Part shown: piece after piece, positions 4,536 through 23,678 of the stretch
Position numbering within the stretch: the stretch's first letter is position 1
Layout of the letters: every line of letters starts with the position of its first letter
The notes under the pieces: model-generated
The model's input: only the letters and a program-made list of their open reading frames with translations
Told to the model about the DNA's origin: nothing
Database searches by the model: none
Position numbers and translations under genes: made by a program
Source of the DNA: Desulfobacterales bacterium
GTDB taxonomy: Bacteria; Desulfobacterota; Desulfobacteria; Desulfobacterales; C00003060
DNA length: 32,407 nucleotides
Reading direction: 5' to 3'
NCBI GenBank assembly: GCA_023129535.1
Contig: JAGMBW010000028.1
Span: 1-32,407 of the forward strand

Positions 4536-6653
4536 GACTTCTCGACTTTTATACATCTTGATTACACCTTCCTCGATCCTGTCGATTTCATCCTTTTTTT
4601 CTTCAAATATTTTCTTGGCCTCTTCCGGGTTTTCGATGATGTGGGGGGTTAGAAATACGAAAAGGTTGGTCTTATTTTGTGTCTTGGAGACTGATTTAAA
4701 AAACCAACCCAAACCCGGGATATCGCCCAGGCAAGGAACCTTGTACGTTCCCATTTCACTAGTTTCGCCAATAATACCCCCGATAACCACGCTATTAGCG
4801 TCCTTCACAATAACCGTTGTTTCTGCTGATCGCTTGAGTGTAGTTGGTTTGTCTCCCTTCACCTCTCCTTTCAGTTTTATTACTTCTTGAAAGATTTTTA
4901 AGCGAACAAATCTTTCCTGATTAATCTGAGGGGTAACCTTAAGAGTGACCCCCACATCCTTATACTCATAACTGCTATAGTCTCTACCTATCTCCGTTGT
5001 TTCCGCTCTGGTAATATACGGGACATTCTCTCCAACATAAATCTCAGCATCCTCATTGTCAGTTGTCAAAATCTGCGGCGTAGAAAGGATATGCACATCG
5101 GAATCCTTCTTGTAGGCCCGTATTACAGCCCCTATGGTAGGAAACGTAAATTTGCCAATTGTAATCCCTTCACCCAGAACTCCCAACGAAAACCCCCTAG
5201 GGAAGATGGGACTTTTTGGAATGATTTGATACTCACCATATTCTGGTTTAGTTCCTCCAAGCCCACCGGAGCCTATAAAGCCTGCACTTTTTCTGCCATC
5301 ATGACTACCAATTTCTTCCATGGCACGCCACTCCACGCCAAGCGTGAAATCTTTATCCACATTCACTTCCATAATCAGCGCCTCAATATAGACCATCCTT
5401 CGCGGAATATCGAGTTTCTCAATAACATCCAGGAGGACAAGATAGTCGTCCTTATCTGCCCTAATTACCAGGGAATTGGTCGCCTTATCGGACAAGATCT
5501 GGACTTCCTTGGAAATAATGGGCGCTTTTCCCTTTGCGGGCGCTTTTGCCTGTTTGGAAGGGAGGGCCATTAGGACCTTGGCCAGATCTTCGGCATTGGC
5601 GTTCTGAAGATAATATACGTGGATGTCCCCCTCGCCTCGGGGGATTTCTTTGTCCAACAGTTTAATGAGTTGTTTGACCCTTAAAGTATCATCCTCAGTG
5701 GCCGCAATGATCAGAGAATTAGTCCTCTCGTCGGCTACAATCTTGACATCGGGACTCACAGGGACGCCTTTTCTCCGGGGCCGCGCCTTGACCTGAAAGA
5801 CAGGCAACAGCGACTTTACCAAAACCGTTGCCGTGGCATGTTCAATAGGTATCACCGATATCTCTGCACCGATACCCACGACATCAATCACCTTTACTAT
5901 ACGGAGCAGGCGTTTGATATTGGAAAGGACGTCAGTCACAATCAGGATGCCAGTAGGGGCGTATGAGATAATCACACTGCTCTTGGATATCAAGGGGGCA
6001 AAGAGTTTTTTCAGGTCATCGGGGTTGGCATAGTCTAAGGGAATCAGTTGCGTGACCACCTTGTCTTGGGGATCGATAGCCTCCTCGCGCAACCGCGTTT
6101 CAATGTTCTTGGATCGGGCCTGAACCGCCGGGATAATCTTTATCACGCTTCCCGCAGGCACGGTCGTAAAACCGTGCACCTCCAGGACCGATTCAAAAAC
6201 CTTGTACGCCTCTTTTACTGAGATCTTGGTCGGCGAGATAATCGTCACCTTTCCCCTGACTCCTTTATCAACCACGAAATTCTTGCCCGTCAGCTCGCTG
6301 ATGAACTTAATAAAAAGCGCGATATCGACGTTGTCAAAATCGATGGTCACATAACGCTCATCGGTCGCTTGTTCTGCAGGCATTTGTTGCTGACTGGGGA
6401 TCTCCTTTTTAGGAGGTGTTTTCTTTTTCGCTCGGATAAGCTTTTCAGGGGCAGGGGCTTTCCGGGGAGGCTTCACCACCGCAGGCCTCACACCTTCCTC
6501 ACCCGCAACACGGGCACCAAGGGCCACGGAATGACTGGCAAGCAGCCATAGGGCTACGCATAGAAGGGAGAGAATACATTTGAAGATGGAGTGCTGGAGT
6601 GCTGGAGTGCTGGAGTACTGGAGTGGTGGAGTACTGGAGTACCGGGTTTTCAT
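4527..6653 (-). CDS. gspD: Type II secretion secretin GspD
   Basis: The outer-membrane channel of the T2SS. The protein has 708 residues. After a signal sequence come the N0 domain (D-E-R-Y-V-T-I-D-F-D-N-V-D-I), N1 (T-Q-L-I-P-L-D-Y-A-N), N2 (I-S-V-I-P-I-E-H-A-T-A) and N3 (I-H-V-Y-Y-L-Q-N-A-N-A). The secretin barrel follows, with the gate region I-L-S-T-P-Q-I-L-T-T-D-N, V-G-E-N-V-P-Y-I and the closing L-F-V-F-L-T-P-H-I-I. The start chosen is the ATG at 6653, preceded by GGAGGG at a good distance. Between M-K-T-R and the hydrophobic core lie about 18 residues encoded by an 8-bp array (S-S-T-P-P-L-Q-Y-S-S-T-P-A-L-Q), giving an unusually long signal-peptide N-region. The stop is inside a 7-bp array. 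Function is certain; the exact N-terminus is not. Confidence 0.95.
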   Translation of the reverse strand: MKTRYSSTPPLQYSSTPALQHSIFKCILSLLCVALWLLASHSVALGARVAGEEGVRPAVVKPPRKAPAPEKLIRAKKKTPPKKEIPSQQQMPAEQATDERYVTIDFDNVDIALFIKFISELTGKNFVVDKGVRGKVTIISPTKISVKEAYKVFESVLEVHGFTTVPAGSVIKIIPAVQARSKNIETRLREEAIDPQDKVVTQLIPLDYANPDDLKKLFAPLISKSSVIISYAPTGILIVTDVLSNIKRLLRIVKVIDVVGIGAEISVIPIEHATATVLVKSLLPVFQVKARPRRKGVPVSPDVKIVADERTNSLIIAATEDDTLRVKQLIKLLDKEIPRGEGDIHVYYLQNANAEDLAKVLMALPSKQAKAPAKGKAPIISKEVQILSDKATNSLVIRADKDDYLVLLDVIEKLDIPRRMVYIEALIMEVNVDKDFTLGVEWRAMEEIGSHDGRKSAGFIGSGGLGGTKPEYGEYQIIPKSPIFPRGFSLGVLGEGITIGKFTFPTIGAVIRAYKKDSDVHILSTPQILTTDNEDAEIYVGENVPYITRAETTEIGRDYSSYEYKDVGVTLKVTPQINQERFVRLKIFQEVIKLKGEVKGDKPTTLKRSAETTVIVKDANSVVIGGIIGETSEMGTYKVPCLGDIPGLGWFFKSVSKTQNKTNLFVFLTPHIIENPEEAKKIFEEKKDEIDRIEEGVIKMYKSREVSD
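6587..6642. repeat. 8-bp tandem array inside the 5' end of gspD
   Basis: Exactly seven units of TGGAGTGC/TGGAGTAC on the plus strand. It is translated as part of the GspD N-terminus and is followed on the plus strand by the IVP remnant, the same order as at 18643-18760. Confidence 0.95.
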
Positions 6654-6657
6654 CTTT

Positions 6658-6752
6658 CTATCCCTCCATTTCTCCATATGTCGCCCATTCTTCTTTGACC
6701 ATATCATCTATCCAAATCACCCTTATTTCTTTTGTTCTCTAAAGACTTTATT
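6658..6752 (-). pseudogene. 3' remnant of an IVP/S23 four-helix-bundle gene
   Basis: These bases closely match the 3' end of the second IVP gene at 18691-18780. Read in two frames they give S-L-E-N-K-R-N-K-G-D and then D-D-M-V-K-E-E-W-A-T-Y-G-E-M-E-G-stop, against S-L-E-S-K-R-N-K-G-D and M-V-K-E-E-W-A-A-Y-G-E-M-E-G in the longer copy. One small indel separates the two parts and the rest of the gene is missing. Its last codons contain the Shine-Dalgarno used by gspD. The adjacent 8-bp array is also shared with the longer copy, so gene end and array were copied together. Confidence 0.85.
6662..6667 (-). promoter_or_regulatory. Ribosome-binding site of gspD supplied by the IVP remnant
   Basis: GGAGGG on the minus strand, eight bases before the ATG at 6653. 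It is formed by the penultimate codons and stop of the IVP remnant (ATGGAGGGATAG). Confidence 0.7.
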
Positions 6753-6824
6753 ATAACCTTGCAAGAGGAGCATTCCAAAAAAGTATGTAAGATTTACCCC
6801 ATTGCACTTGAAAGCTTTGCATTT

Positions 6825-6865
6825 AAGTTCCCCCCTTTTGTAAAGGGGGGTTAGGGGGGATTTTC
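6825..6865. repeat. Left C-rich inverted repeat of the DUF559 cassette
   Basis: It contains a perfect hairpin, CCCCCCTTT-TGT-AAAGGGGGG (6830-6850), followed by TTAGGGGGGATTTT. Its reverse complement is found to the right of the DUF559 gene. It ends immediately before the stop codon of that gene. Confidence 0.9.
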
Positions 6866-7213
6866 TTACAAGCGCCCATATATCTTATGCAAAACCCCAT
6901 CGATATTCGTGAATATTTCTCTTCCTGAAAACCTTAAGACTTTAAACCCAAGCCTTCCAAGAAAATTATCTCTAATTTCATCCTTTTCTAGTCCCTGTCC
7001 ATGGTAATGTTGACCGCCATCGATTTCAATAATCAGCTTTGCGGCAGGACAATAAAAATCAACAATGTAGTTCCCGATGTTTTTCTGTCTGTAAAATTGA
7101 TAGCCATTAATCTGTTTTCTTCTGATTTTCGCCCAAAGAAACCTTTCCGAATCGGTCATATTCTTTCTAAGTTCTCTTGAACGTTGTTTGAGTTGCTTAT
7201 TGAATGGAAGCAT
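6866..7213 (-). CDS. DUF559 endonuclease-like protein (Vsr-related PD-(D/E)XK fold)
   Basis: A 115-residue protein of the DUF559 family, related in fold to very-short-patch-repair and restriction endonucleases. Residues 8-30 (R-S-R-E-L-R-K-N-M-T-D-S-E-R-F-L-W) are the usual N-terminal signature. The presumed metal-binding core is N-Y-I-V-D52-F-Y-C, then E63-I-D65-G-G-Q-H69, complete for the family. DNA cleavage has not been shown for most members. The gene sits alone between gspD and the gspB-like gene, flanked on both sides by inverted copies of the same C-rich hairpin repeat, and is visibly more A+T-rich than the gsp genes. This looks like an inserted cassette rather than a secretion gene. 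The G-rich tract of the right repeat lies just before its ATG. Confidence 0.9.
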   Translation of the reverse strand: MLPFNKQLKQRSRELRKNMTDSERFLWAKIRRKQINGYQFYRQKNIGNYIVDFYCPAAKLIIEIDGGQHYHGQGLEKDEIRDNFLGRLGFKVLRFSGREIFTNIDGVLHKIYGRL

Positions 7214-7216
7214 CTA

Positions 7217-7290
7217 TAAAATCCCCCCTGCCCCCCTTTTCTAAAGGGGGGTTAGTGGAGATTTTCTCCTTTAAGAAGGGGGGGGAACTC
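7217..7290. repeat. Right C-rich inverted repeat of the DUF559 cassette
   Basis: It starts AAAATCCCCCCTGCCCCCC, has the hairpin CCCCCCTTT-TCT-AAAGGGGGG at 7231-7251, and is followed by a partly degenerate second G-run ending near 7290. It is the inverse complement of the left repeat. A third copy lies inside the gspB-like gene. Confidence 0.9.
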
Positions 7291-7351
7291 ACTACGTTTC
7301 TTGATTCATATGACCTACTTTGCCTGGGGACGTATTTCGTGAGGCTCTCCA

Positions 7352-8137
7352 TTACTCCATTCCTCTATTCCTCCCGACCATTTTTTCAAATCCTGCCACT
7401 CCGCGCAGGTTTTGCAGGTCTGAGTCCGTCCTTGCCCAGTTCTTAACCTCTGGGTCCAGCGAAACTGCTCTGTTCAAATGGTCAAGACTCTGCCTCACGT
7501 TCCCTTTAATGGCATGGAGGCACGCTAAGTTGTAATGAGAGTCCACATAATTCGGTCTGAGCTGAATCGCTTTCAAAAACAATGCACGGGCTGCTGAGTA
7601 CTTTTTGTCTTGAATATATATAACCCCTAAATTGTTTAATGCGTCTACATACTCAGGATCAAGGTCTAGGGCTTCCTCATAAAGTCTTTTAGCTTCCTGC
7701 AAGCGACCACTTTTTTGGAAATCTCTGGCCTTTTCATACAAAGAGGTAGCTGTTGAATTGAGGGTGGATTCATGATTGCTGTGCCTTGTAAAATCCCCCC
7801 CCAGCCCCCCTTTACTAAAGGGGAGAGTTTTTGAAGGCTCCCCTTTACGCCCTTCCCTATTCCCATCGCTCAAGGGAGAGGAAAGTGGGAGGCTTTCTGG
7901 CTTTGGAGTTGCCTCAAGCTCTACGGGTTCAGGAATGGGAGACCGTATCCCTCTGGAGGGTAACCACAAATAGGCCGTAAAAGCAAGCGAGATTACGAGA
8001 AAAGATGCCCACCAAAGCTTTTTGCCAGAAAAAAAAACCGGGTTGTATCGGGGTGCTGACACAATCCCACGGTATTTCTGATAACCGGCGTCTTTTTCTC
8101 TTTGGGCCTTTTTCAGGGCCTCATGGATGGAGCTCAT
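7352..8137 (-). CDS. GspB-like membrane protein with periplasmic TPR domain
   Basis: A 261-residue protein. The N-terminus M-S-S-I-H-E-A-L-K-K-A-Q-R-E-K-D resembles the cytoplasmic start of GspB/ExeB-type proteins. A transmembrane helix follows (about residues 40-58, W-W-A-S-F-L-V-I-S-L-A), then a Pro-rich linker and three TPR units (A-R-D-F-Q-K-S-G-R-L-Q-E-A-K-R, A-L-N-N-L-G-V-I-Y-I-Q-D-K-K, H-Y-N-L-A-C-L-H). It lies directly downstream of exeA, where GspB normally partners GspA in secretin assembly; that role is inferred. An upstream in-frame ATG at 8179 was rejected because the extra residues are encoded by a 7-bp array. The linker segment K-T-L-P-F-S-K-G-G-L-G-G-D-F is encoded by a C-rich repeat insertion. 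Confidence 0.8.
   Translation of the reverse strand: MSSIHEALKKAQREKDAGYQKYRGIVSAPRYNPVFFSGKKLWWASFLVISLAFTAYLWLPSRGIRSPIPEPVELEATPKPESLPLSSPLSDGNREGRKGEPSKTLPFSKGGLGGDFTRHSNHESTLNSTATSLYEKARDFQKSGRLQEAKRLYEEALDLDPEYVDALNNLGVIYIQDKKYSAARALFLKAIQLRPNYVDSHYNLACLHAIKGNVRQSLDHLNRAVSLDPEVKNWARTDSDLQNLRGVAGFEKMVGRNRGME
7790..7850. repeat. C-rich repeat copy inside the gspB-like gene
   Basis: A solo copy of the repeat that flanks the DUF559 gene (AAAATCCCCCCCCAGCCCCCC, then TTTACTAAAGGGG). It lies in the region encoding the linker between the transmembrane helix and the TPRs, without breaking the frame. Confidence 0.88.
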
Positions 8138-9796: not shown

Positions 9797-9798
9797 AA

Positions 9799-9946
9799 GT
9801 CTGTTGAGTCTATTGGGTCTATGGAGTCTATTGGGTCTATGGAGTCTATTGGGTCTATGGAGTCTATTGGGTCTATTGGGTCTATTGGGTCTATGGAATC
9901 TATTGAGTCAACACAACAGACACAACAGACACAATGGACACAATGG
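9799..9946. repeat. 9-bp repeat element with inverted arms (gspC-exeA gap)
   Basis: The left arm has twelve direct 9-bp units GTCTATTGG/GTCTATGGA (9799-9906). The right arm has four ACACAACAG/ACACAATGG units (9911-9946), roughly inverse complementary to the left. It fills the gap almost completely and touches the exeA start. Confidence 0.95.
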
Positions 9947-9952
9947 ACATTC

Positions 9953-11970: not shown

Positions 11971-12075
11971 TGGAGTACTGGAGTATTGGAGCACTGGAGT
12001 ATTGGAGTGTTGGAGTGTTGGAGTGTTGATTTTTCATTACTCCATTACTCCATGACTCCATGACTCCATGACTCC
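11971..12075. repeat. 8-bp repeat element with inverted arms (gspN-gspM gap)
   Basis: A textbook example of the family: left arm of seven TGGAGTAT/TGGAGTGT units (11971-12026), a spacer of about nine bases, and a right arm of five ATTACTCC/ATGACTCC units (12036-12075). The arms are inverse complements and could fold into a long hairpin in RNA. Confidence 0.95.
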
Positions 12076-12600: not shown

Positions 12601-13057
12601 TTTTGTGTTCGTTGTGTCTGTTGTGTTCGTTGTGTTCGTTGTGTTCGTTGTGTCTGTTGTGTTTGTTGGGTTTGCTTTGTCCGCGTGTTTTCTGATTGCG
12701 CAGGAGATAGGTAATTAGGCCGGAATCCAGTTTAGAAACTTTTTCGGCTTGCTCATAGATGCAACGGAAGATTTTCTCGGTCAGATATTCTTGATCCAAA
12801 GCCACGTAGGCTTCACTCTGGACTTCCGTCGCCGAACTCTTTGATATGAAAAGATACTGAATAAACTCCTTGTCCCATCTCCGAGAAAAGCCCTCTGCTA
12901 TGTTACTCATCGAAGATATCGCTGCACCAGTAATCTGCCCACACAATCTAAAATCCTTTTGAAAATCCTTGCTCGCTTTTATTGCCTCATAAACAAGATT
13001 CACTAATTTCCGCGCTTCCTGCCAGCAATGTAAATCCTCAAACCTCTTAATTTTCAT
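12581..13057 (-). CDS. Four-helix-bundle IVP/S23-family protein, inserted between gspL and gspM
   Basis: A 158-residue member of the four-helix-bundle family first known from proteins encoded in 23S rRNA intervening sequences. The start at M-K-I-K-R-F-E-D-L-H-C-W-Q-E-A-R was chosen because that is the conserved family beginning; an upstream ATG adds only Leu-Gly residues from a 9-bp array. The family core S-S-M-S-N-I-A-E-G-F-S-R-R lies at about 52-64, followed by the E-F-I-Q-Y-L helix and a K-S-S-A-T-E-V-Q-S-E motif. The last 30 or so residues (H-N-E-H-N-E-H-N type) are encoded by another 9-bp array. Function outside rRNA is unknown. It interrupts the otherwise conserved gspL-gspM pair and both ends are repeat arrays, so it appears to be cargo of a repeat element. 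Confidence 0.85.
   Translation of the reverse strand: MKIKRFEDLHCWQEARKLVNLVYEAIKASKDFQKDFRLCGQITGAAISSMSNIAEGFSRRWDKEFIQYLFISKSSATEVQSEAYVALDQEYLTEKIFRCIYEQAEKVSKLDSGLITYLLRNQKTRGQSKPNKHNRHNEHNEHNEHNRHNEHKNEAGKT
12604..12675. repeat. 9-bp array, left arm next to the gspM start
   Basis: Eight units of TGTGTTCGT/TGTGTCTGT. On the minus strand it encodes the His-Asn-rich tail of the IVP protein and ends three bases before the gspM ATG. Confidence 0.95.
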
Positions 13058-13062
13058 GTTCA

Positions 13063-13144
13063 ACCCACTCAAACCCAATAGACCCAATAGACCCAATAGA
13101 CTCAATAGACCCAACAGACCCAATAGACCCAACAGACCCAATAG
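13063..13144. repeat. 9-bp array, right arm between the IVP gene and gspL
   Basis: About nine units of ACCCAATAG/ACCCAACAG. In orientation it is the inverse of the 12604-12675 type, so the IVP gene lies between two opposing 9-bp arms. It ends three bases from the gspL stop. Confidence 0.95.
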
Positions 13145-13147
13145 ACG

Positions 13148-14766: not shown

Positions 14767-15756
14767 CTATTCTATCTTCCACGACACGATATCAAGTTTC
14801 TGACCCGTTCTTTTGACCATTCCCGTGACCAGCTTGGCCATGGTCCCTTTGAAACCCTTTGATGTGATCTCAAAATAGGTGCTTGAGGTGGTGAGTAAAC
14901 CAGCGTCTATTACCACACTGCCCATACCCGGAACACTCTTGTACCAGTTGGGATTTGACAGGTTGTTGTCTTCGTCCTCACGATATGCAAGCATATCCTG
15001 GATCCTCTCGTCGTCAATATCATTTGAAAGGGCCCTTAGTACCACAGGATCTGCCGTATTGATGTTGATCTTGCCATTACCATGAGGACTTAAGTAGTTC
15101 GAGATACCGGGCCTTTCCTCAGCGCCGTAAAAGAGCTCCCTGGTGATGTCTCTGACAAGAAGTAACTCCTCGAGGAATTCCACATCCGCATTCTTGCACG
15201 AATACGGCTTTTCCAGTCCGCGATAGTATGAGTTTTCCGCACCACCAAATCCGGTCACCTCGTCATCGTCCCCGCGGTCAATCCAGTCTTTGATGGCATC
15301 TACGATATTGTTTGCCTCGTCCGGCTCGAGTCCGAATTCTACCGATTGCAAGAATCGCATGAGGAGGCCTTTTTGCTTGTCATTATAGGTTTTCTTGTCG
15401 TCGTTTAATAGCTTATTGATCTGAATCCTTCCCGAATAGTCTGACACCTTGATCTCAAACCAGCCATCGCCGAACATGGCAGCCGAATTCTCAGAAAAGG
15501 TCTCTGGATCTGCCCAGGCCTCATGGAGGGAATCGACGTTACCTTCTGAGGCGTCCTCAAGCAGGACCGCGAGGGCATAGTTGAATCCTGACTTGGCAAT
15601 ATAGCCGAGTCTGATGCCATCCCGGAGATTGGCTGCTGCATACACGTCAGAGCGCATAGATCTATTGAACTCAAGCGTCACCGCAACGATTAGACCAATG
15701 ATCAGAATCGTGAGGATAAGGGCCATGCCCCTGTTGTCTCGGAGAAACCTTTTCAT
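14767..15756 (-). CDS. gspK: Type II secretion minor pseudopilin GspK
   Basis: A 329-residue minor pseudopilin that caps the pseudopilus tip with GspI and GspJ. The leader M-K-R-F-L-R-D-N-R-G is cut before M-A-L-I-L-T-I-L-I-I-G. As in other GspK proteins the +5 Glu is absent. The large periplasmic part has the GspK signatures G-R-I-Q-I-N-K-L-L, A-I-K-D-W-I-D-R-G-D-D-D, N-S-Y-Y-R-G and K-I-N-I-N-T-A-D-P-V-V-L. These include the acidic D-D-D loop implicated in metal binding in the family. The length is normal. Confidence 0.96.
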   Translation of the reverse strand: MKRFLRDNRGMALILTILIIGLIVAVTLEFNRSMRSDVYAAANLRDGIRLGYIAKSGFNYALAVLLEDASEGNVDSLHEAWADPETFSENSAAMFGDGWFEIKVSDYSGRIQINKLLNDDKKTYNDKQKGLLMRFLQSVEFGLEPDEANNIVDAIKDWIDRGDDDEVTGFGGAENSYYRGLEKPYSCKNADVEFLEELLLVRDITRELFYGAEERPGISNYLSPHGNGKININTADPVVLRALSNDIDDERIQDMLAYREDEDNNLSNPNWYKSVPGMGSVVIDAGLLTTSSTYFEITSKGFKGTMAKLVTGMVKRTGQKLDIVSWKIE

Positions 15757-15769
15757 GTTCTAATAAGTC

Positions 15770-15903
15770 ACCGCAGAGACGCTGAGAACGCAAAGGTTGT
15801 GTCTTCTCGTTCCCACGCTCTGCGTGGGAACGGATACCACCGGGCGCTCTGCGCCCTTATAAGTAAGAAGGCGGGTTACCGTCATAAGAGACGCAGAGCG
15901 TCC
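15770..15903. repeat. REP-like palindromes in the gspK-gspJ gap
   Basis: It begins with CGCAGAGACGCTGAGAACGC-type units, then a perfect 11-bp stem at 15808-15832 (CGTTCCCACGC-TCT-GCGTGGGAACG), a GGGCGCTCTGCGCCC palindrome and a GACGCAGAGCGTC palindrome. No coding sequence is seen in this gap of about 180 bp. Confidence 0.85.
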
Positions 15904-15939
15904 AGCGGATTGGATTATCCCAAATCCGCAATCCAATGA

Positions 15940-16710
15940 CTACCCTTGCCCCATTGGAAGCGCAACCTTTGTCAAGAATCTAAAGGGCGTATCAGGATCT
16001 GACTTATTTTCAAATTCGAGTAATATGGAAACCATTTGTGGTATCCTGTCCTTGAAAGCCTCGGTTGTAGAATCCCAGTTATCGTGCTCTTCACCCTCGG
16101 CGTCATGATAGGTGAAATTTACCGAGCGCAGTTTCTCGCAAAGGACCAATCCGCCGGTGTCTTCGCCGGAGGCTTCTATACCCCCCGGGGCGTCTTTGCG
16201 ATACAACACAAGACCCTCTTCCGCATCATTCTCAGCAGCATAATAACCTATCTCGGCTGTTCCAGAAGCTTGCTCTTGCTCGCTGAAGACAAGGTGCGCT
16301 CTGGAGATAAAGCGAAGGGAGTCGGCACTGCTGCCTTTGATCTCCATATCCTCGCCTACGAATTCAAAGACCTGACCGCTGTCCTCCTCTGATTTGGAGG
16401 ATTTCAGATTCCTTGGAATGTAAACAGACTCTAAATCTTCCTGCATTCTTTCCAGGGCAATCCGGGCCATTCTGTAAATATCAGCCTGATGTTCGGTCTC
16501 ATCCACGATGCGAAAAGTTCCGGTATAAGAGGTATAGATTGTGGAAAGAACAATGGCAAAAATGAACATGGCGATGAGGATTTCTACCAGGGTAAAACCT
16601 TTTGGGTTTGTTGGGTTTGTTGGGTTTGTTGGGTTCGTTGTGTCCATTGTGTCCGTTGTGTCCATTGTGTCCATTGTGTTCATTGAGTTTATTGACTTCA
16701 TTGTGTTCAT
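15940..16710 (-). CDS. gspJ: Type II secretion minor pseudopilin GspJ with array-encoded leader
   Basis: A minor pseudopilin of the tip complex. The processed protein begins at F-T-L-V-E-I-L-I-A-M-F after K-G, with the conserved Glu at +5, and its body (Y-R-M-A-R-I-A-L-E-R-M-Q-E-D-L-E, L-R-F-I-S-R-A-H) fits the family. Everything before K-G is encoded by a 9-bp array: T-M-D-T-T-N-P-T-N-P-T-N-P. Six in-frame ATG codons occur in this stretch and none has a Shine-Dalgarno, so the true start cannot be fixed; the longest frame is given. A start at the last ATG would leave a leader of about 17 residues. Because the unit is 9 bp, gain or loss of units keeps the frame. Confidence 0.9.
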   Translation of the reverse strand: MNTMKSINSMNTMDTMDTTDTMDTTNPTNPTNPTNPKGFTLVEILIAMFIFAIVLSTIYTSYTGTFRIVDETEHQADIYRMARIALERMQEDLESVYIPRNLKSSKSEEDSGQVFEFVGEDMEIKGSSADSLRFISRAHLVFSEQEQASGTAEIGYYAAENDAEEGLVLYRKDAPGGIEASGEDTGGLVLCEKLRSVNFTYHDAEGEEHDNWDSTTEAFKDRIPQMVSILLEFENKSDPDTPFRFLTKVALPMGQG

Positions 16711-16953
16711 TGGCTTTGTTGGGTCTATGGAGTCTATTGGGTCTATTGGGTCTATGGAGTCTATTGGGTCGATGGAGTCTGTTGAGTCTATGGAGTCTAT
16801 TGAGTTTATTGGGTCTATTGAATTTATTGAGCTTATTCAGCTTGTTCAGCTTGTTTGGGTTTTAACACAAGAGACACAATGAACACAACAAACACAACGA
16901 ACGGGAGCGTAGCGACCACACACAACAGACACAACAGACACAATAAACGCAAT
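16602..16953. repeat. Large 9-bp repeat element spanning the gspJ start and gspJ-gspI gap
   Basis: The left arm runs to about 16858 and has over 25 units drifting through TTGGGTTTG, TTGTGTCCA, GTCTATTGG and GTCTATGGA. The right arm (16865-16953) has ACACAATGA/ACACAACAG units interrupted at 16901-16917 by GGGAGCGTAGCGACC. It is the biggest array in the window. Confidence 0.93.
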
Positions 16954-17364
16954 TTACCCGGTTTCCGGCATAAATCTATACAGCCTGAGACCATACTCGT
17001 ACTGCCCATCCTCACCCCAGGAAATGATTAAATCAAATTGTTTGAGGTAGTCAGAAACATTTTCAGGGCTATCAAAAACAACATCGCTCATCGTCAGGTC
17101 CCAGCGATACCCCGGAAAATCCTCGCCGAAATCACCTGAATCAGAAGTAAGGTCGTGCGGGTCCCCGGCCTCTATTTCAGCCATCTTACCATGGGCCAGA
17201 AAGGAGGCTGTGGTGCTGAATTTGGCTTCACTGGCCAAGGATAGACTTTGAGATTGTGATCCGAGCACAGCCACCAGGGCAATGGCAATAAGGGCTACGG
17301 CCACCATCACTTCTAAGAGCGTAAAGCCGGAAGTCCCGGAATTTCTGCAACTTAGTGAGACCAT
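16954..17364 (-). CDS. gspI: Type II secretion minor pseudopilin GspI
   Basis: A minor pseudopilin of the tip complex. The leader ends S-G and the mature part starts F-T-L-L-E-V-M-V-A-V-A-L-I-A-I with Glu at +5; A-H-G-K-M-A-E-I-E is the usual GspI motif after the helix. The ATG at 17364 gives a 13-residue leader of normal size. The frame is open back to an ATG at 17490, whose first residues (M-E-Q-W-S-I) come from an 8-bp array. That longer version would give a leader of about 55 residues and is not preferred, although the GGAGGGG at 17392-17398 lies rather far from the chosen ATG. Confidence 0.9.
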   Translation of the reverse strand: MVSLSCRNSGTSGFTLLEVMVAVALIAIALVAVLGSQSQSLSLASEAKFSTTASFLAHGKMAEIEAGDPHDLTSDSGDFGEDFPGYRWDLTMSDVVFDSPENVSDYLKQFDLIISWGEDGQYEYGLRLYRFMPETG

Positions 17365-17404
17365 TGGTCTTTGCTCGACAATCGATTCATCCCCTCCACA
17401 TACA

Positions 17405-17498
17405 GTAATGGAGTAATGGAGTGCTGGAGTAATGGAGTAATGTATTTCGGGGAACAAAGATTTTTTGTATTCAATACTCCATTGCTCCATTACTCCAA
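17405..17498. repeat. 8-bp repeat element with inverted arms (gspH-gspI gap)
   Basis: The left arm is GAGTAATG/GAGTGCTG units (17405-17442), then a spacer of about 30 bases, then a right arm ACTCCATT/GCTCCATT (17472-17498). On the minus strand the right arm reads GGAGTAATGGAGC, a ready-made ribosome-binding site plus ATG. Confidence 0.93.
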
Positions 17499-17503
17499 CC
17501 TAA

Positions 17504-18160
17504 TCATTCAATTTCCACATATCTCTCAAAAACTTTGACTCTTCCCAGAAAAGGACTCAGCACCAGGGTAAATTCCCTGCCATCTTCTGCCGCAAGATGA
17601 ATCGCTGATTGTTCGATGTAACCCTTCTTAGTAAAATGGATGGTCGCCTCTCCATCGACCTCCTTGCCCCTTGCCCTGGACCAAACATCCATTATGGTAA
17701 CTCCCTGTGGGAGCTGGAATGCTTTTTCGAAAGCGAGCGCCCGTCCTTCATCTGTCATGTCCGCCGACTCTATCCAAAACCGGTTCGACTCAAGGTCGAA
17801 ATGAAGCCTGTACTTCGTTTGCTCCCGGATTGCCTCATTTTTCAAGTTCCTGACGGTCCCGACGACTCGCCGTACAGTGCCCTTCAGGTCATCGGTCAAC
17901 ATGGCATAACGAAATTTCGGAACAGTCCAGACCAGTGTCAGCCCGATTAGAAAGATAACAACAGTTAACTCGATGAAGGTGTAACCTTTGCCGTTCCGGT
18001 TCAACTCAGGGTGTAACCGTTCACGGAGTGTTGGAGTAATGGAGTGTTGGAGTAATGGAATATGCGAAAGAACAAGAATACGCGTATCAAATAGATTTTG
18101 AATTGCCGAATGAAAACCCAAAATCCAGGATCGAAGGGCTCCAATACTCCATTGCTCCAT
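17504..18160 (-). CDS. gspH: Type II secretion pseudopilin GspH with uncertain start
   Basis: A minor pseudopilin. The processed form starts at Y-T-F-I-E-L-T-V-V-I-F-L-I-G-L after N-G-K-G, with Glu at +5. The body (A-I-R-E-Q-T-K-Y-R-L-H-F-D-L, I-H-F-T-K-K-G-Y-I-E) fits the GspH domain. The only in-frame ATG is at 18160, inside an 8-bp array, giving M-E-Q-W-S-I and a leader of about 60 residues, far too long for prepilin peptidase substrates. A TTG at 18004 would give a six-residue leader but has no clear Shine-Dalgarno. The repeat element probably displaced the original start. Coordinates give the longest frame. Confidence 0.87.
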   Translation of the reverse strand: MEQWSIGALRSWILGFHSAIQNLFDTRILVLSHIPLLQHSITPTLRERLHPELNRNGKGYTFIELTVVIFLIGLTLVWTVPKFRYAMLTDDLKGTVRRVVGTVRNLKNEAIREQTKYRLHFDLESNRFWIESADMTDEGRALAFEKAFQLPQGVTIMDVWSRARGKEVDGEATIHFTKKGYIEQSAIHLAAEDGREFTLVLSPFLGRVKVFERYVEIE

Positions 18161-18177
18161 TACTCCATTACTCCAAA
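18025..18177. repeat. 8-bp repeat element with inverted arms (gspG-gspH gap)
   Basis: The left arm is TGTTGGAG/TAATGGAG units (18025-18060), then an 80-base spacer, then a right arm of ACTCCATT/GCTCCATT units (18139-18177) that touches the gspG stop codon. The element reaches into the 5' part of the gspH reading frame. Confidence 0.92.
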
Positions 18178-18178
18178 T

Positions 18179-18625
18179 TTATTCCAGTTCCCAACTGTTC
18201 ACATCTTCATCCTTACCTTCCCCACCAGGTTCTCCATCAGGACCGTAGGAGGAAAGGTCTAAATCCCCGTGAACGCCCGGGGAAAGATACACATATTCAT
18301 TTCCCCATGGATCTTTGGGGACCTTCCCTTTTTCCAGGTACCCACCCTGGCGCCAGGCTTTGGGAAGCTGGCCTACTGTAGGGGGTTCGACCAGTGCCTG
18401 AAGACCCTGGTCAGTGGTGGGATACGAGCCGCTGTCCAGCTTGTACAGCTTCAGGGCAGTCTCTATGCTTTCTATTTGAACCATGGCCTTCATGCGTCTG
18501 GCCTCTTCCGGCCTGCCCATGATTCTGGGAATAATAAGCCCTGCCAGAATGCCCAGGATCACAATGACGACCATGAGTTCAATCAGCGTAAAACCACGAT
18601 CTTGACCGAATCCGAGCCTTTTCAT
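18179..18625 (-). CDS. gspG: Type II secretion major pseudopilin GspG
   Basis: The main pseudopilus subunit, 148 residues. The leader M-K-R-L-G-F-G-Q-D-R-G is cut before F-T-L-I-E-L-M-V-V-I-V-I-L-G-I. The family body follows: I-I-P-R-I-M-G-R-P-E-E-A-R-R, I-E-T-A-L-K-L-Y-K-L-D-S-G-S-Y-P-T-T-D-Q-G-L-Q-A-L. The C-terminal D-P-W-G-N-E-Y-V-Y-L and the acidic S-Y-G-P-D-G-E loop fit the calcium site of the family. AGGAGG lies four bases before the ATG, the strongest ribosome-binding site in the operon, as expected for the most abundant subunit. Confidence 0.98.
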   Translation of the reverse strand: MKRLGFGQDRGFTLIELMVVIVILGILAGLIIPRIMGRPEEARRMKAMVQIESIETALKLYKLDSGSYPTTDQGLQALVEPPTVGQLPKAWRQGGYLEKGKVPKDPWGNEYVYLSPGVHGDLDLSSYGPDGEPGGEGKDEDVNSWELE

Positions 18626-18642
18626 AAAACCTCCTGGTTGAA

Positions 18643-18677
18643 ATGGAGTGCTGGAGTATTGGAGCGCTGGAGTATTG
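18643..18677. repeat. 8-bp array, left arm of the IVP cassette in the gspF-gspG gap
   Basis: Four units TGGAGTGC/TGGAGTAT. It is followed on the plus strand by the IVP 3' end, the same order as at 6587-6752. It pairs in orientation with the right arm at 19149-19183. Confidence 0.93.
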
Positions 18678-18690
18678 GCTTTTCATTACT

Positions 18691-19153
18691 CTATCCCTCC
18701 ATTTCTCCATATGCCGCCCATTCTTCTTTGACCATATGATCTATCCAATCGCCCTTATTTCTCTTGCTTTCTAAAGACCGTATCAGTCTTATAAGTTCGT
18801 TCTCGACTTTGTAACAGAAGGAATCGAGTTTCTCGAACTCTTCATCAGAGATAAGATGCCCTGCTTTGGATGCAAAAAGTCCTGATACGGTTTCACCAAG
18901 TGAAGCAAGGGCAACATAGAGGAATTTGGATATATTCACGAATAGAACGGCGGCAATAGCCCTCCGCGATGTTCCGGTGTATAGAATCCGCACCAGCCAT
19001 TTGTTGACTTGCTATCTTTTTGAATTCAAAAGGAAAACCCTTGAATTCTTCCAAAATCATAGTGTGCAACAAAATGGCATCTTGCCACACACGCAACTTT
19101 TGATAGCCACGATTCAAGTTGTATCTTGTTGTGTTCTCGAACTTGTTCTCCAT
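18691..19153 (-). pseudogene. Four-helix-bundle IVP/S23-family gene with one-base frameshift
   Basis: A second member of the IVP family. The first part begins M-E-N-K-F-E-N and contains Y-Q-K-L-R-V-W-Q-D-A, Q-M-A-G-A-D-S-I-H-R-N-I-A-E-G-Y-C-R-R. The second part, in another frame, continues F-L-Y-V-A-L-A-S-L-G-E-T and ends M-V-K-E-E-W-A-A-Y-G-E-M-E-G. Removing one base from the T-run at 18925-18927 (an A-run on the coding strand) restores Y-I-Q-F-L-Y-V-A-L-A-S, so the two parts join into one family protein of about 150 residues. The break could be a true mutation or a sequencing error. Both ends are enclosed by opposing 8-bp arms, and the right arm supplies the GGAG and ATG of this gene. Confidence 0.88.
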
Positions 19154-19183
19154 TACTCCACCACTCCATTACTCCAATACTCC
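19149..19183. repeat. 8-bp array, right arm of the IVP cassette
   Basis: Units ACTCCATT/ACTCCACC/ACTCCAAT, inverse complementary to 18643-18677. It lies just downstream of gspF on the minus strand. Confidence 0.92.
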
Positions 19184-19194
19184 GTTTCACCGTT

Positions 19195-22550: not shown

Positions 22551-23678
22551 ATGAACAGATCTAAGTTCGTCATAATTTGCTGCATTATTCTGGGGGTCAT
22601 GCTTTTAGTTTTGCCCTTTTCTGCTCATGCCGCTCAAAAGATCGGAAAGATCACAAGACTCACAGGCACAGCGGAGATACTCCGCGAAGGTATTCCAAGC
22701 CCGATTACTGTATCCGTGGGGATACCCGTTCAACTCCGTGATTTGATTGAGACCGGTGCAGATTCCAACCTTCGTATTGAACTTATAGACGGCAGCATTC
22801 TGAGCGTGGGTGAAGAGGCGGATCTCGACTTAGCTGAATTTGAATTCGACCCTGACGAGAAGAAGCGGAGCGCCCTCTTTGGAATGGACATAGGTAAAGT
22901 TCGCGTTTTTGCCAATGATCTTGTGGCCTTTAGACAGCGTGACTTTAACATCAAGACGCCCACGGCTGTCTGCGGTGTGCGGGGCACCCTGTTTTTGGTG
23001 TGGGTTAAATCAAAAACCATTACGCGGGTGGTTACCTTCGATAAACCGGTACATGTTGCCAATATACAAATGCCTGAAAAGTTTGTAGTTCTCACAAAAA
23101 ACTTACTAACCGATATCAAGAAAGGCAAAGTACCTACCAGACCGGTTCTTGCCACTCCGGAGATGCTCAGAGAATTACGAAAAGGGCTTGAAGAGGCGCC
23201 GACTGCTCCAGCGACTACAGAAACAACGGAGACGACGGAGGAAACTACGACCGAGGAGACCACGACAGAGGAAACGACTACCGAGGAGACCACGACAGAA
23301 GCAACTACCACTGAGGAGACTACTACCGAGGCTACAACAACGGAAGAAACTACTACTGAGGCTACTACGACTGAAGCTACCACAACGGAAGCAACGACTA
23401 CTCAAGCCACGACAACTGAGGCCACCACAACGCAAGCCACAACGACTACTGAAACAACGACAACCACGGCAGCAACTACAACTCTGCCTCCAACCACGAC
23501 TCAAGCTACTACGACGACAGCTCCAACCACAACAACTACAACTACTACGACAACGACCACAACAACGACGACCACAACAACGACGACCACGACGACGACC
23601 ACAACAACGACGACAAGTACATTTACGACAACGACCATACCTCTATCAACACTGCCGGAACCTCCGGGGACGCCTTAG
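22551..23678 (+). CDS. FecR-domain protein with long Thr-rich tail
   Basis: A 375-residue exported protein, ATG preceded by AAGGGG. The signal peptide is about 28 residues (V-M-L-L-V-L-P-F-S-A-H-A-A). Residues about 35-175 form a FecR-type domain: I-G-K-I-T-R-L-T-G-T-A-E-I-L, L-R-D-L-I-E-T-G-A-D-S, G-S-I-L-S-V-G-E, I-K-T-P-T-A-V-C-G-V-R-G-T. There is no sigma-factor partner or inner-membrane helix, so it is more likely a periplasmic or surface FecR-like protein than a signalling anti-sigma factor. From about residue 220 the chain is T-T-T-E-E and T-T-E-A repeats and then an almost pure Thr run, ending L-S-T-L-P-E-P-P-G. Such tails are often O-glycosylated stalks in surface proteins. Confidence 0.85.
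   Translation: MNRSKFVIICCIILGVMLLVLPFSAHAAQKIGKITRLTGTAEILREGIPSPITVSVGIPVQLRDLIETGADSNLRIELIDGSILSVGEEADLDLAEFEFDPDEKKRSALFGMDIGKVRVFANDLVAFRQRDFNIKTPTAVCGVRGTLFLVWVKSKTITRVVTFDKPVHVANIQMPEKFVVLTKNLLTDIKKGKVPTRPVLATPEMLRELRKGLEEAPTAPATTETTETTEETTTEETTTEETTTEETTTEATTTEETTTEATTTEETTTEATTTEATTTEATTTQATTTEATTTQATTTTETTTTTAATTTLPPTTTQATTTTAPTTTTTTTTTTTTTTTTTTTTTTTTTTTTTTSTFTTTTIPLSTLPEPPGTP
23215..23640 (+). repeat. Coding repeat: Thr-rich tail of the FecR protein
   Basis: About 140 codons, mostly ACN with GAA/GAG, GCN and CAA interspersed. The protein repeat is strong but all four Thr codons are mixed, so the DNA repeat is weak. Only short stretches, such as ACA-ACA-ACG-ACG-ACC, recur exactly. 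Confidence 0.9.

Follow-up and report, generated by a model that had tools for sequence, protein, structure and literature searches.

The window is the whole stretch of DNA that was analysed (32,407 nt) and it contains three copies of a gene for an IVP protein. The copy at 18.6–19.2 kb lies between two inverted arrays of 8-bp units, found by inverted-repeat search and TRF. The left arm (positions 18639–18678, plus strand, TGAAATGGAGTGCTGGAGTATTGGAGCGCTGGAGTATTGG) consists of (TGGAGTAT)n and is the 3' arm in the IVP sense; the right arm (positions 19150–19189, plus strand, CCATTACTCCACCACTCCATTACTCCAATACTCCGTTTCA) consists of (ACTCCATT)n and is the 5' arm. Each arm is 40 nt, the two are 83% complementary, and the spacing between them is 471 nt. 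The IVP gene is on the minus strand (positions 18691–19153) and its PF05635/TIGR02436 match is split over two ORFs: profile positions 1–56 are found in ORF 18893–19153 and positions 56–109 in ORF 18691–18993, which is in a different frame. Because the N- and C-terminal halves match in two frames, this is a frameshifted copy. In the profile search its N-terminal half scores 35 bits, above the curated cut-off. The preliminary description had placed an IVP gene between a left and a right 8-bp arm here. The layout is real, with coordinates correct to a few bases, and a gene of this family is enclosed, but the copy is not intact. The element at 18643–19183 is a fossil. No intact IVP of the TGGAGTA type was found in the genus.

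The second copy is intact. Its IVP domain (positions 12728–13039, minus strand, 91 bits) is a homologue of the solved structures 2gsc and 2rld, and it is enclosed by 9-bp arrays, (TTGTGTTCG)n on the left (positions 12603–12674, plus strand, from tandem-repeat and inverted-repeat calls) and (ACCCAATAG)n on the right (positions 13073–13146, plus strand, inverted with the left arm). This element occupies the gspL-gspM junction. The third copy (positions 6587–7374) is decayed. Its remnant on the minus strand (positions 6587–6768) has an 8-bp arm (6587–6640) and the 3' end of an IVP gene and is 87% identical to positions 18644–18778; the opposite 8-bp arm is at positions 7347–7374 (plus strand, TRF and inverted-repeat search). 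A DUF559 gene (positions 6866–7213) inside this copy at first seemed to be another gene carried by the 8-bp arms, a reading that was rejected. It belongs to an element of its own (positions 6831–7251, minus strand, with arms at 6831–6864 and 7218–7251) that is nested in the IVP remnant.

The window also has hairpins of the same kinds of units that enclose no gene. Three are made of 8-bp arms with a short spacer, as had been proposed at the outset: 2205–2365 (arms 2205–2234 and 2268–2365), 11971–12075 (arms 11971–12028 and 12035–12075, with a 7-nt loop) and 18025–18175 (arms 18025–18062 and 18139–18175), the last at the gspG-gspH junction. An empty 9-bp hairpin with a 2-nt loop is at positions 9798–9949 and a cluster of empty 9-bp hairpins at 16602–16953. 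An array is present at nearly all junctions of the type II secretion operon (positions 14767–18625), and arrays lengthen the predicted GspH and GspJ ORFs at their N-termini (MEQWSIG... and MNTMKSINSMNTMDTMD...). Elsewhere in the window, positions 22551–23678 encode a FecR-like secreted protein with a long Thr/Glu repeat tail that derives from 15-bp repeats (positions 23232–23616).

Eighteen IVP matches in this genome are over the curated cut-off of the PF05635/TIGR02436 profiles. The 160-bp flanks of each gene were scored for inverted complementarity, and a score of at least 12 was taken as positive. Positive flanks are found for 17 of the 18 IVP genes and for 5 of 248 non-IVP ORFs from 302 kb of sampled stretches; control intervals moved 750–1000 bp within the same loci gave 3 positives out of 640. 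The 8-bp arm layout is therefore not a product of chance, and inverted arrays do flank IVP genes more often than random genes, a comparison that the preliminary description had proposed. The single remaining IVP gene of the genome (L006) has only weak arms. Arms are found around 72 of 85 IVP genes in the order, around 26 of 29 in the phylum (one IVP per genome, all from different genomes) and around 9 of 10 on named plasmids. In about 20 other phyla, a set that spans Bacteroidota, Acidobacteriota, Clostridia, Cyanobacteria and Patescibacteria, the count is 71 of 80, compared with 18 of 320 mispaired flanks. Clear arms are absent for approximately one in eight IVPs. The arms are tandem 6–10-mers with about 28 paired bases and 88% identity, the 5' arm is G-rich in 62 of the 72 cases in the order, and element length is mostly 415–600 bp (approximately 420–600 bp). 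A universal arm motif across elements was rejected, the 4-mer excess being slight. Two IVP elements that are 95% identical (L011 and L012) are each flanked by two tRNA genes.

Two other gene families show a comparable arrangement. Complementary arms surround 27 of 29 GxxExxY genes (PF13366, PDDEXK_3; L283–L312), where they are inverted 8–10-bp tandem repeats of the types CACAGAG, ACACGGAT and AACGCAGATG, and 21 of 24 DUF559 genes (PF04480; phylum-wide, L254–L276), where they are inverted, C/G-rich and palindromic. Each family has its own arm style. Between co-directional genes the ratio of sense to antisense is 18:0 for GxxExxY and 14:0 for DUF559. Both families are presumably PD-(D/E)XK-type nucleases. 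DUF559 would represent a second class of one-gene element, and the arms around the two families suggest that one-gene elements form a wider class, concealed among the 'hypothetical proteins' encoded between genes of operons.

Comparison of orthologous junctions reveals full and empty versions of the same site. The gspL-gspM gap is 550 nt in this genome, where it holds the arms and IVP, whereas in six sisters it does not exceed 17 nt (3–17 nt, usually 3–8 nt, between stop and start codon). Arms and gene are absent together from these sister sites, as the check for empty sites in sister strains had anticipated. Genome G032 has a 58-nt hairpin with a different unit at gspL-gspM. The gspF-gspG junction varies among sister genomes: at one extreme it is 41 nt and has no array, others have short hairpins, and at the other extreme it holds a different IVP element, whose arms are of the CGTGTC type.

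On plasmids of cyanobacteria the junction can be read to the base. Between plasmids that are 97–98% identical, a whole element of about 420 bp is present or absent. The empty site in the Trb region, GTTAAAAAGTAATTAACAAATAAATATG, is found on closed, named plasmids of Nostoc linckia, Tolypothrix PCC 7712 and N. carneum. The full site, found in Trichormus variabilis and Scytonema, reads GTTAAAAAGTAAT, then the element from AAATCAGAATTCAG through IVP to TCCTGAGTTCTTCTTT, then GTAATTAACAAATAAATATG. Relative to the empty plasmids, a 5-bp duplication, GTAAT, flanks the 423-bp element. On the left the heptamer arm starts no more than 3 nt from the duplication, and on the right the distance is about 7 nt; the arms are terminal inverted repeats. 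The Trichormus and Scytonema copies differ by 14 bp, which corresponds to two heptamers in one arm. At a second site TTCTA is present on both sides of a 79%-identical IVP that has the unit of the Trb-site element. Three further sites have about 9 degenerate bp, 2–3 bp and no clear duplication. Element ends are resolved solely by closely related pairs of full and empty plasmids, and a scan of 148 elements whose arm ends are fuzzy, having been taken from local alignment, gave no excess of target duplications. IVP elements are also located within CRISPR operons of cyanobacterial plasmids, twice between cas6 and cas4 and once between cas10 and cmr3 (L407, L409 and L422), and in conjugation operons (L405 and L410).

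These sites bear on the proposal that the host makes short-tandem hairpins and that IVP genes drop into the ready-made loops. Gene-less hairpins are indeed abundant (of the 169 arrays counted in 302 kb of the genome, 97 are in inverted pairs), and one junction can carry different IVPs with different arms (L018 compared with L044), as such a process would predict. Against it, empty junctions are mostly without any array, the target duplications are outside the arms, genomes that have no IVP have almost no arrays, and the unit tracks the IVP lineage between species. The proposal is already contradicted at the resolved sites, and we regard it as very improbable.

Arm units vary among loci and IVP lineages, but the two arms of one element match. 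The similarity of units follows the identity of the proteins (Mantel r 0.49; 0 of 5000 permutations reach 0.1). For pairs of elements in different genomes with unrelated outer flanks, i.e., at non-orthologous sites, the unit is shared by 88% at protein identities of at least 80%, by 77% at 70–80% and by 15% at 60–70%; among all different-genome pairs at 40–50% identity it is shared by 1%. Units are shared across families by L095 and L100 (AAGCTGA), by L064 and L153, and by L040, L139 and L217 (AAGGGTTC). Since related IVPs at unrelated sites in different genomes have the same unit, the arms travel with the gene. Genomes G007, G008, G018, G005 and G031 each have 140–470 occurrences of a 9/10-bp unit, AAAGTGCCT/AAAGTGAGCT, alongside one IVP subfamily; G017 has 325 matches to this unit and only a fragment of the cognate IVP. 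The suggestion that IVP proteins spread with stem structures outside rRNA agrees with these results, in that the arm sequence tracks the IVP lineage and the arms and gene are gained and lost together.

Some loci are intermediate in form. In G032, 8-bp arms enclose just the last ~37 codons of an IVP gene as the result of an internal deletion, and at the Trb site plasmid pC052_E of Nostoc C052 has one arm and the first part of IVP. These two loci link full elements to gene-less hairpins, and the 'empty' hairpins are best read as deletion derivatives of IVP elements. The original idea of a gene-carrying repeat element in full and empty versions is upheld by the gain and loss of the element as a unit and by the deleted intermediate in G032. 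Array density per Mb is 553 in this genome (18 IVPs), 553 in G005 (19 IVPs), 430 in G017 (19 IVPs), 118 in G007 (6 IVPs) and 20 in G028 (2 IVPs), and 0–21 in four well-sampled genomes without IVP, one of them from the same genus. Arrays are thus not abundant where IVP is absent. Neither of the two observations that the preliminary description had named as refuting it, IVP genes elsewhere in the genome that have no arrays and plentiful arrays in genomes without an IVP gene, was made. The correlation between array density and IVP number has a Spearman rho of 0.73 (p 1e-5, n = 28), where the p value is optimistic as the genomes are related, and so not independent, and some samples are small. The number of arrays of a single unit is linked to an intact cognate IVP weakly (p = 0.045), because debris, e.g., that of TGGAGTA, outlives its gene.

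The ratio dN/dS between related IVPs, within-genome paralogues included, has a median of approximately 0.09. This ratio indicates that IVP is under purifying selection and that its copies are selected for function; selection on each copy is expected if IVP acts largely in cis. Between co-directional neighbours IVP is in the sense orientation 132 times and antisense 8 times. One could propose from this that the element is a regulatory module that serves the host, with IVP binding a hairpin in the operon mRNA and stabilizing or uncoupling the neighbouring genes. The sense orientation within operons, the location at gene junctions and the purifying selection are all compatible with such a role. 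However, the elements are patchy at orthologous junctions, many copies are decayed, some are borne on plasmids, and the units are private to IVP lineages and not to host genes. We give this proposal very little credence.

The predicted structure of the IVP at positions 12728–13039 has a pLDDT of 90.6. When this model was searched with Foldseek, the IVP/S23 structures 2gsc and 2rld came first, followed by Avd (4dwl, TM 0.85 by target) and the complex of a diversity-generating retroelement (8ub7). By profiles and Foldseek, IVP is the sole gene of the element, so that no known recombinase is encoded there, and IVP itself has no known recombinase fold. Three Y1_Tnp genes are present in the genome, all outside IVP arms. 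One of them (L314, positions 1415–2080) is located between near-identical 33-bp palindromes (AGAAACCAGGTTTTT and AAAAACCTGGTTTCT) in a REP/RAYT-like arrangement.

The likeness to Avd raises the question of movement at the RNA level. An operon transcript would fold, the stem would be cut out by RNase III as in the 23S intervening sequences (IVS), and a reverse transcriptase acting in trans would copy it back, for which IVP would serve as a cofactor in the manner of Avd. The fold, the strong sense bias and the cutting by RNase III at the first heptamer repeat in the Coxiella IVS (PMC4990558) are in favour of this route. On the other hand, no RVT_1 reverse transcriptase was matched in the 98%-complete genome with its 18 IVPs, and the sense bias is equally expected from a plain need for host transcription. 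Mismatches in the stems do not show an excess of G-U over A-C (148 compared with 187), so that selection on an RNA stem is not supported. The folding energy of one element in the window is well below that of mononucleotide shuffles (-181.5 compared with -135), but this is not the case for the other element. A DNA route is favoured because of the target duplication and the lack of a G-U excess. The RNA route retains some probability, as IVP has the fold of Avd, its genes show the sense bias and there is a precedent in rRNA, but we consider it unlikely.

The feature at 18639–19189 is probably a copy of a minimal transposable DNA element, with inverted tandem-repeat arms at its termini and a single gene, IVP, that is matched to them; IVP would recognize its own arms and direct movement. 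Sequence comparison shows insertion as a unit into gene junctions, a short duplication at two sites, clade-specific ends, decay, and selection on the protein. We infer that IVP acts on the stems. The form recognized would be DNA, probably hairpins that are extruded or single-stranded, with the arms of the same element serving as multi-site binding tracts, and IVP would direct movement of the element mostly in cis. Either IVP or an enzyme of the host would do the cutting and joining. The unit could change without loss of the match between the arms through tandem slippage together with templated correction from arm to arm. Copies decay by frameshift and internal deletion to gene-less hairpins. 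For the sense bias in operons, the best explanation is that the gene has to be transcribed from a host promoter. A stronger form of this interpretation is more doubtful, and we offer it tentatively: IVP may itself be a DNA-processing enzyme of a new class of transposition proteins, a four-helix bundle that forms pentamers, has near-invariant Q, R, S, N, E and E residues and recognizes the tandem-repeat hairpin ends of its own lineage. The 23S IVS and the Avd of diversity-generating retroelements would then be derived or specialized relatives, and its debris would make up a large part of the heptamer repeats of bacteria.

To our knowledge, no function has been assigned to IVP/S23 proteins since they were discovered in rRNA intervening sequences, and we know of no general explanation for the excess of 7–9-bp tandem repeats in bacterial genomes. 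One family of mobile elements would account for both the protein and the scattered repeats, and it supplies IVP with a partner that can be tested, namely the arms that flank its gene. In the open-licence literature we found no account of IVP-heptamer elements outside rRNA, although absence there is not proof.

The 23S rRNA IVS of Leptospira and Coxiella have the same plan as the IVP elements: an inverted-repeat stem with an S23p/IVP ORF in the loop, in the sense of the host transcript. The Coxiella IVS is 428 nt, and upstream of its ORF it has heptameric repeats whose number varies (PMC4990558); the IVP elements are similar in length. However, the elements described here have a tandem-repeat array as the stem, are multicopy and dispersed, have a 5-bp duplication at two sites and give rise to gene-less derivatives; neither the window nor any of 60 sampled IVP loci gave a match to an rRNA family. 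The parallel drawn in the preliminary description therefore holds for the plan, but the evidence of mobility is at the DNA level, in the target duplication, and selection on an RNA stem was not seen. REPIN/RAYT systems are similar in that inverted repeats flank a gene, gene-less inverted doublets occur genome-wide and the type of repeat is specific to the gene lineage (PMC3116915). They differ in that the IVP elements have a four-helix bundle in place of a Y1 (HUH) transposase, tandem-array arms and a gene that is present in many copies in a genome. Terminal inverted repeats, target duplication and internally deleted non-autonomous copies characterize MITEs and their parent transposons; IVP elements have such repeats and deleted copies, and a target duplication at the two sites described above, but the full IVP element encodes no DDE, HUH, serine or tyrosine recombinase. 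The Avd of diversity-generating retroelements has its fold in common with IVP, a homology to PF05635 that has been noted (PMC10053308), and the IVP elements tie the IVP fold to these systems; unlike Avd, IVP here has no adjacent reverse transcriptase, template or variable repeat. Heptameric repeats such as GGGAATC in Xanthomonas and GGGGATT in Nostoc resemble the IVP arms in that they form intergenic arrays that are sometimes inverted and vary in length between relatives, and the study that catalogued them reported no general link to mobile elements (PMC4692102). In contrast to that picture, the heptamer-type arrays described here represent the arms and remnants of IVP elements.
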